From Nanobdellati archaeon (GTDB taxonomy: Archaea > B1Sed10-29 > JAGVWA01), in NCBI GenBank assembly GCA_018304505.1, contig JAGVWA010000008.1:1-16503 (forward strand): a stretch of DNA of 16,503 nucleotides, read 5' to 3'. Numbering within the stretch: the first letter of the stretch is position 1; each line of letters begins with the position of its first letter. Made by a program: the position numbers and the translations under genes. The notes below the pieces were generated by a model. That model was not told the origin of the DNA, ran no database searches, and saw only the letters and a program-made list of their open reading frames with translations. Of the stretch, positions 4,630 to 5,369 are shown piece by piece.

Positions 4630-4773
4630 CTACTTCTTGCCCTGCTTCTTAGACCTGAGCTGGTCAGACCCACACTTTCTGCATTTCTTTACCGTCTTCG
4701 GGTTCCTGGCCTTGCATTTCCTGCAAACGGTCTTGTCAAACATCCTTGCCTTCAGTTCTGGAAATATTGGCAT
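4630..4773 (-). CDS. rpl40e: large-subunit ribosomal protein eL40
   Basis: This is a 47-residue basic zinc-ribbon protein, close to the usual length of archaeal eL40 (no ubiquitin fusion). It reads MPIFPELKARMFDKTVCRKC and continues with the second pair of cysteines, so C17-x2-C20 and C31-x2-C34 bind zinc. It is a structural protein of the 50S subunit. ATG 4773 is preceded by the ribosome site GAGGTG, five bases upstream, and a TATA box lies at about 4828-4820 on the minus strand. It is transcribed away from the tRNA cluster, so the space 4774-4942 holds two divergent promoters. The family assignment is secure from the cysteine spacing and flanking sequence. Confidence 0.93.
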   Translation of the reverse strand: MPIFPELKARMFDKTVCRKCKARNPKTVKKCRKCGSDQLRSKKQGKK

Positions 4774-4942: not shown

Positions 4943-4964
4943 GTCCCGTTAGTCTAGTGGCCAT

Positions 4965-4997
4965 CTGCTGCCTCTTCAATGAGGAGCGGCAGGCCAA
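4965..4997 (+). other. D-loop intron of tRNA-Glu (noncanonical position)
   Basis: The central helix is GGCC (4959-4962) with GGCC (4992-4995). The 5' bulge is ATC (4963-4965), the inner helix TGCTGC/GCGGCA (4966-4971 with 4986-4991), and the 3' bulge AAA (4996-4998). Cutting after the second base of each bulge gives a 33-base intron. Because GGCCA is repeated at both ends, boundaries could shift by a base or two. The outer helix is poor, so this is a relaxed BHB. Confidence 0.7.
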
Positions 4998-5015
4998 AAG
5001 GATTCGGCCCTTTCA

Positions 5016-5046
5016 TACTCACCCCCTCCGGGAGACGAGTGGAGAA
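5016..5046 (+). other. anticodon-loop intron of tRNA-Glu (canonical 37/38)
   Basis: A full BHB is visible. Outer helix CGGCC/GGCTG; central helix CTTT (5010-5013) with GGAG (5041-5044), using two G-U pairs; 5' bulge CAT (5014-5016); inner helix ACTC/GAGT (5017-5020 with 5037-5040); 3' bulge AAA (5045-5047). Cutting CA|T and AA|A removes 31 bases and leaves a seven-base loop. Confidence 0.85.
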
Positions 5047-5112
5047 AGGCTGAGACACGGGTTCAAATCCCGTACGGGGCATAGGCACAAAAAAAACACA
5101 AATGGTGATCAA

Positions 5113-5220
5113 TTGAAAAGCAAGCCGCGAAGATGGAAAAAGAAAAACAACTCCCGCTGGAAGTGGGTCAAGAAGAAAATGCGGAAACGCAAACGCAAGG
5201 AAAAAATGAGAAAGAGATAA
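5113..5220 (+). CDS. rpl41e: probable large-subunit ribosomal protein eL41
   Basis: This 35-residue protein is almost entirely Lys and Arg: MKSKPRRWKKKNNS, then SRWKWVKKKMRKRKRKEKMR. The second part matches the eL41 consensus (KW-x-KKRMRRLKRKRRKMR) in position of the Trp, the Met and the basic run; eL41 is a 25-residue single helix at the subunit interface. The start is TTG 5113, with GGTGAT at 5104-5109 three bases before it, the same spacing as the small gene at 365. The ten or so extra N-terminal residues are unusual. It sits 31 bases after tRNA-Glu and 30 before tRNA-Leu with no clear promoter of its own, so it is probably co-transcribed. Low complexity limits certainty. Confidence 0.72.
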   Translation: MKSKPRRWKKKNNSRWKWVKKKMRKRKRKEKMRKR

Positions 5221-5250: not shown

Positions 5251-5369
5251 GCAGGGGTGCCGGAGTTCGTCCACTCGCTGAACGCGGCGGGCGACCGGAC
5301 TGGTCAAACGGGATGGGCTTAGGACCCATTGGCTTAGTGCCTACGAGGGTTCAAACCCCTTCCCCTGCA
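5251..5369 (+). tRNA. tRNA-Leu(UAG) with a D-loop intron
   Basis: Acceptor arms GCAGGGG (5251-5257) and CCCCTGC (5362-5368) pair perfectly, discriminator A5369. T arm is GAGGG-TTCAAAC-CCCTT (5345-5361). Anticodon arm ATGGG-CTTAGGA-CCCAT (5313-5329) gives anticodon TAG (5320-5322). A long variable arm (GGC/GCC stem within 5330-5344) is the class II form typical of Leu. The D arm is interrupted by 35 bases (5266-5300). Joined, it reads CCGGAGTGGTCAAACGGG, a standard archaeal Leu D arm, and the mature RNA has 84 bases. CCA is not encoded. The last 18 bases plus two downstream recur at 5474-5493. Confidence 0.92.
5266..5300 (+). other. D-loop intron of tRNA-Leu (noncanonical position 15/16)
   Basis: The central helix is CCGG (5260-5263) with CCGG (5295-5298). 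The 5' bulge is AGT (5264-5266), the inner helix TCGTC/GGCGA (5267-5271 with 5290-5294), and the 3' bulge ACT (5299-5301). Cutting AG|T and AC|T restores the canonical D arm exactly. The outer helix is absent, so this is a relaxed BHB. Confidence 0.82.

Follow-up and report, generated by a model that had tools for sequence, protein, structure and literature searches.

The tRNA-Glu(UUC) gene is one of two tRNA genes in the window, by which we mean the whole 16,503-nt stretch of DNA that was analysed. It carries one intron in the anticodon loop and another in the D loop. The second tRNA gene, tRNA-Leu(UAG), carries a D-loop intron as well. The features are:

4943..5081 (+): tRNA-Glu(UUC) gene, two introns, CCA not encoded (Rfam RF00005, 36.6 bits; ARAGORN on the spliced form)
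4943..4963 (+): exon 1, with the acceptor 5' strand, the D-stem 5' strand and the D loop to about 20b (GTCCCGTTAGTCTAGTGGCCA)
4964..4998 (+): D-loop intron of tRNA-Glu(UUC), 35 nt, best-supported placement (BHB solver; D loop of the ortholog)
4999..5015 (+): exon 2, with the end of the D loop, the D-stem 3' strand, the anticodon-stem 5' strand and the anticodon UUC
5016..5046 (+): 37/38 intron of tRNA-Glu(UUC), 31 nt (BHB solver)
5047..5081 (+): exon 3, with the anticodon-stem 3' strand, the variable loop, the T arm, the acceptor 3' strand and the discriminator A
5251..5369 (+): tRNA-Leu(UAG), with D-loop intron (ARAGORN, Rfam, BHB solver)
5266..5300 (+): D-loop intron of tRNA-Leu(UAG), 35 nt, at 15/16, CCGG AG↓T ... 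CCGG AC↓T (arrows, here and below, mark the splice junctions), inner helix of 6 bp

The RF00005 match to tRNA-Glu(UUC) has exactly these limits and exceeds the gathering value of 29; its alignment contains extra bases, 39 in the D loop and 33 in the anticodon loop. ARAGORN misses the unspliced gene, as had been foreseen for standard tRNA finders. Once both introns are taken out, it calls tRNA-Glu(ttc), and the spliced cloverleaf has full stems, with 7 acceptor, 4 D, 5 anticodon and 5 T pairs. At the level of sequence, the Rfam inserts and a strict BHB at each junction confirm the original prediction of a tRNA-Glu(UUC) gene split by a canonical 37/38 intron and a D-loop intron, with one boundary corrected. 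By eye, two very small genes for ribosomal proteins flank it: one for a 47-aa zinc-ribbon protein, eL40-like, at 4630-4773 (-), and one for a 35-aa basic peptide, eL41-like, with a TTG start, at 5113-5220 (+).

What structure would the transcript present to a splicing enzyme? At the 37/38 intron the BHB solver pairs 5010-5013 (CUUU) with 5041-5044 (GGAG), including two G-U pairs, in a central helix of 4 bp between two 3-nt bulges, 5014-5016 (CA↓U) and 5045-5047 (AA↓A). It is flanked by an inner helix of four pairs (ACUC/GAGU) and by the anticodon stem as outer helix. This is the geometry of an archaeal BHB intron at 37/38, and the expectation of a textbook motif there was borne out.

At the D-loop insert the solver finds two overlapping strict BHB registers, of 33 and 35 nt, with almost equal scores (34.5 against 34.3). 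The 35-nt register reads UGGC CA↓U ... GCCA AA↓A. Its 4-bp central helix joins 4958-4961 (UGGC) to 4993-4996 (GCCA); its bulges, at 4962-4964 and 4997-4999, are identical to those of the 37/38 intron; and its inner helix is CUGCUG/CGGCAG, with an inner run of 7. Its removal leaves a normal D loop, AGUGGCCAA, and a tRNA of 73 nt. The tRNA-Glu(UUC) of a genome of the same order, G007, is uninterrupted, lacks the D-loop insert, has exactly AGTGGCCAAGGATTCGG and is also 73 nt long. The D loop of this ortholog is reproduced exactly by the 35-nt register and not by the 33-nt one, which is why we prefer the former: splicing in this way yields AGTGGCCAA-GGAT as in G007, and the two mature sequences are identical at 63 of 73 positions without a gap. 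The same D loop is found in Glu(CUC) of G006 and Gln(CUG) of G003. A 33-nt intron, GGCC AU↓C ... GGCC AA↓A, would leave the D loop AGUGGCCAUAA and a mature tRNA of 75 nt. Its central helix is equally strict, it has one more outer pair and its folded energy is 0.7 kcal/mol lower; its D loop, however, is two bases longer than that of the ortholog, and we consider it quite improbable. The 35-nt placement is thus the best supported. Of the original prediction of a 33-base insertion, the D-loop intron and its BHB stand, whereas the boundary and the expected 75-base product are probably wrong.

About 2% of dinucleotide-shuffled versions of the Glu(UUC) insert produce a strict BHB that has four or more inner pairs and leaves the D loop normal. 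For the D arm in isolation, the fold of lowest predicted energy pairs UGGCC with GGCCA around a 2x2 internal loop and is not a BHB. In the naked D arm the BHB conformers lie above this minimum, the 35-nt one by 2.8 kcal/mol and the 33-nt one by 2.1 kcal/mol; the outer helix does not directly adjoin the central one. Since the naked D arm prefers a non-BHB fold, protein or tRNA context would have to select the BHB. We take this as a caution; the literature does not make it a defining rule that the naked precursor should be most stable as a BHB.

Is the trait peculiar to tRNA-Glu? It is not: what had been missed is that it recurs in the neighbouring tRNA-Leu(UAG) and in the majority of the genome's other tRNAs. 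Both ARAGORN and Rfam misplace the 5' end of tRNA-Leu(UAG) inside its intron (5284, 5287). A second Leu(UAG) gene (L013) is uninterrupted. We read about 29 of some 43 tRNA-like genes (about two thirds) as interrupted, by about 36 introns; these counts are approximate, from a set pieced together from searches and short stretches that may be incomplete. A genome search with RF00005 overlooked tRNA-Glu(UUC) itself and is unfit for counting interrupted tRNAs.

Thirteen tRNAs have D-loop introns: Leu, and two each of Glu, Gln, Thr, Ser, Lys and Val. The central helix has its full 4 bp in eight, and the motif is weakened to three of four central pairs in five (Thr x2, Val x2 and Gln(CUG)); those of Thr and Val combine three pairs with a G10-A mismatch. 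Strict BHBs with at least four inner pairs and a normal D loop occur in 5 of the 13 inserts, against 0.38 expected from dinucleotide shuffles, and with inner helices of at least three pairs in 8 of the 13, against 0.98, one insert (Lys CUU) being mis-delimited and scored as a failure. About six tRNAs have T-loop introns; those of Gln(CUG), Gln(UUG) and a C8 tRNA lie at 59/60 and are strict, the T stem serving as outer helix. In Glu(CUC), whose D and T loops were read by hand, there are three introns, in the D, anticodon and T loops; the T-loop motif is weakened, and the D-loop intron is that of Glu(UUC), the two agreeing at 31 of 34 bases. In Thr(UGU) and Ser(UGA) the introns sit at one and the same position and resemble each other (score 36, against at most 18 in 200 shuffles), a likeness that recalls the intron transposition reported in Thermoproteales (PMC4090602). 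Automatic solver results for Glu(CUC), L104, Trp, Pro(UGG), Pro(GGG), Ser(GGA), Gly(GCC) and Ile(UAU) were set aside as implausible.

Several other tRNA-like loci came to light. L128 (G000:C3:85680-86150) and L129 (G000:C15:33900-34260) carry an identical T-loop insert, TCTGCAACGAACGCAGTTCGTTGAGCTTTCCGCATAGCGGAA, and a similar 3' flank, TCCGGGCGCCATGTACACCCC, possibly from recent copying; one of them has a long variable arm and a UAC anticodon. L113 (G000:C15:28971) is the 3' part of a tRNA, with T arm and acceptor strand (CAGCCCCA), located where an ORF ends and with no 5' tRNA half nearby; it could be the remnant of an integration site or a split tRNA half. L104 (G000:C3:124135, -), a gene for tRNA-Cys or tRNA-Arg about 224 nt long, probably has two long introns.

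How widely are such introns distributed among relatives? In a pattern search over 19 genomes of the class, D-loop inserts in Glu and Gln were found only in the present genome, G000, the probe TAGTCTAGTGG being missing from about half of the 19, where absence is weak evidence. In G005, of the same order, strict D-loop introns interrupt Ile(GAU) and Thr(CGU), the latter at 15/16, as in Leu(UAG). G009, of the same class and 92% complete, gave eight tRNA matches only, and none in about 160 kb of stretches scanned; its tRNA genes may be even more heavily interrupted. In a more distant archaeon, G022, tRNA-Gln(UUG) (L080) has three strict introns, in the D, anticodon and T loops; no PF01974 match for EndA was found in this 94% complete genome.

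Does the interrupted gene serve the cell? A second, uninterrupted tRNA-Glu(UUC), named beforehand as the observation that would count against it, was sought by BLAST of the spliced sequence and not found in the 92.8% complete genome, in whose gaps such a copy could sit. The search returned the gene's own three exon blocks, the interrupted Glu(CUC) and Gln genes and short tRNA pieces, the best uninterrupted matches being tRNA-Asp (78%) and tRNA-Gly (73%). One might still read the locus as a decayed pseudogene whose D-loop insert arrived by chance and is never removed: naked RNA does not favour the BHB fold. Yet every stem of the spliced cloverleaf is complete, no other tRNA-Glu(UUC) turned up in that search, the Glu(CUC) paralog retains the same insert with its base pairs kept, and a dozen other tRNAs of the genome have like inserts; we find decay very hard to credit. 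We conclude, with a probability of nearly nine in ten, that the gene works and is the genome's one copy for tRNA-Glu(UUC), that its two BHB introns are spliced out to give 73 nt, and that the D-loop intron was gained in this lineage. The restoration of the ortholog's D loop by the 35-nt register points to an intact gene as the recipient of the insert.

Which enzyme would remove the introns? In the genome we found a single EndA gene (G000:C7:26023-26535, 171 aa) and a single RtcB. The predicted EndA model (mean pLDDT 89.9) superposes 169 of its 171 residues on Methanocaldococcus jannaschii EndA (1A79) with Z 23.9, rmsd 1.7 and 36% identity, and the catalytic Tyr, His and Lys positions are conserved. 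Near residue 30, the place of the CSL/ASL, it has no insertion (GER-QGTT), in contrast to the archaeal EndA L051, which carries one there (GKPVGIRKPKVPEF). It is thus one single-unit gene, within the 170-180 aa or so of the alpha4 type and colinear with M. jannaschii alpha; the lysine-bearing CSL/ASL insertion of (alpha beta)2 and epsilon2 enzymes is absent, and none of their beta or fused units was found. We take this EndA to be of the alpha4 type and probably a homotetramer. The broad-specificity endonuclease that the original prediction suggested is not what we found: the enzyme is of the alpha4 kind, without a specificity loop.

We envisage processing as follows. At each intron the exon and intron strands of the transcript would fold into a 4-bp helix between two 3-nt bulges. 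EndA, probably as a homotetramer, would cut every bulge between its second and third nucleotides. The D loop would thereby lose 35 nt and the anticodon loop 31 nt, and RtcB would ligate the exons into the 73-nt tRNA-Glu. The D-loop intron, one of about a dozen in the genome, would have entered the intact Glu gene in this lineage.

Can an alpha4 enzyme carry such a load? Alpha4 EndA enzymes have narrow specificity, and relaxed motifs are cut efficiently only by (alpha beta)2 and epsilon2 enzymes (PMC6379350). If the narrowness concerns the motif and not its position, a narrow enzyme could cut strict BHBs in D and T loops, which would account for most introns of this genome; the five weakened D-loop motifs would then be those needing a broader enzyme. 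Their three of four central pairs fit relaxed cutting by a broad-specificity endonuclease whose beta subunit, or another EndA, is absent from the assembly. The assembly is 92.8% complete, so that a second subunit could sit in a gap, and named MAGs with an AlaRS like that of the window have EndA of epsilon2 length (390-401 aa); the named relatives, Micrarchaeota and Ca. ainarchaeum, are identified from AlaRS only, at 40-47% identity, so that we place the genome no more closely than as a small archaeon that probably belongs near Micrarchaeota/Iainarchaeota. Against this, profile searches of the assembly with PF01974 and PF02778 and a protein search (E<=10) gave one gene only, with no second EndA gene or subunit, and of the 18 further genomes of the class, 14 likewise have one hit, one has two and three have none. 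Cutting by such a broad enzyme is, in our judgement, unlikely. That the loop-less, single-gene alpha4-type EndA processes a Thermoproteales-like intron load, D- and T-loop introns and some weakened motifs included, we put at even odds.

How does this compare with known systems? Thermoproteales have introns at 20/21, 59/60 and elsewhere, as many as three in one tRNA (PMC4033280, PMC4090602), and a few other archaea are also known to have introns at 20/21 and 59/60 and up to three in a tRNA. The original prediction named Thermoproteales as the best-known bearers of multi-intron tRNAs; outside that order such tRNAs have already been reported in Nanoarchaeum, Methanopyrus, Methanothermobacter, Korarchaeum and ARMAN (PMC4033280). 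A two-intron tRNA as such is therefore already known. Pyrobaculum and its relatives resemble the present genome in their multi-intron tRNAs, BHB junctions and similar introns across isotypes, and the Thermoproteales mean of 0.84 introns per tRNA gene (PMC8450103) is about equal to that found here (about 36 in 43 genes). Crenarchaea, however, have an (alpha beta)2 EndA with a Crenarchaea-specific loop, whereas here a different archaeal lineage has a single EndA without it. ARMAN-1 and -2 (Micrarchaeum) share a tiny genome and multi-intron tRNAs with introns at non-canonical positions (PMC4033280, PMC12397907), but their epsilon2 EndA is a 390-aa, three-unit protein, in contrast to the 171-aa, one-unit protein here, which lacks the ARMAN-specific loop. 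It is the alpha4 EndA of M. jannaschii that is the same in length and architecture. Euryarchaeota with alpha4 or alpha2 enzymes are described as having introns in fewer than 10% of their tRNAs, one canonical intron in each (PMC4090602); here about two thirds of the tRNA genes are interrupted, and many of the introns lie elsewhere than in the anticodon loop.

What is less expected is that a single EndA without the loop accompanies an intron load comparable to that of Thermoproteales, a pairing that depends on there being no unassembled second subunit. There is also a practical consequence: in such genomes many tRNAs escape the tRNA finders or are given a wrong start, ARAGORN having missed one and mis-started one in this window alone. 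Reviews associate tRNA sets that are rich in introns and include multi-intron tRNAs with (alpha beta)2 and epsilon2 enzymes, and describe alpha4 archaea as having few introns, one per tRNA, at 37/38. If true, the pairing would break the rule that ties intron richness and non-canonical positions to loop-bearing, broad-specificity enzymes, and this genome and its relative G005 make the idea of enzyme-intron co-evolution testable.
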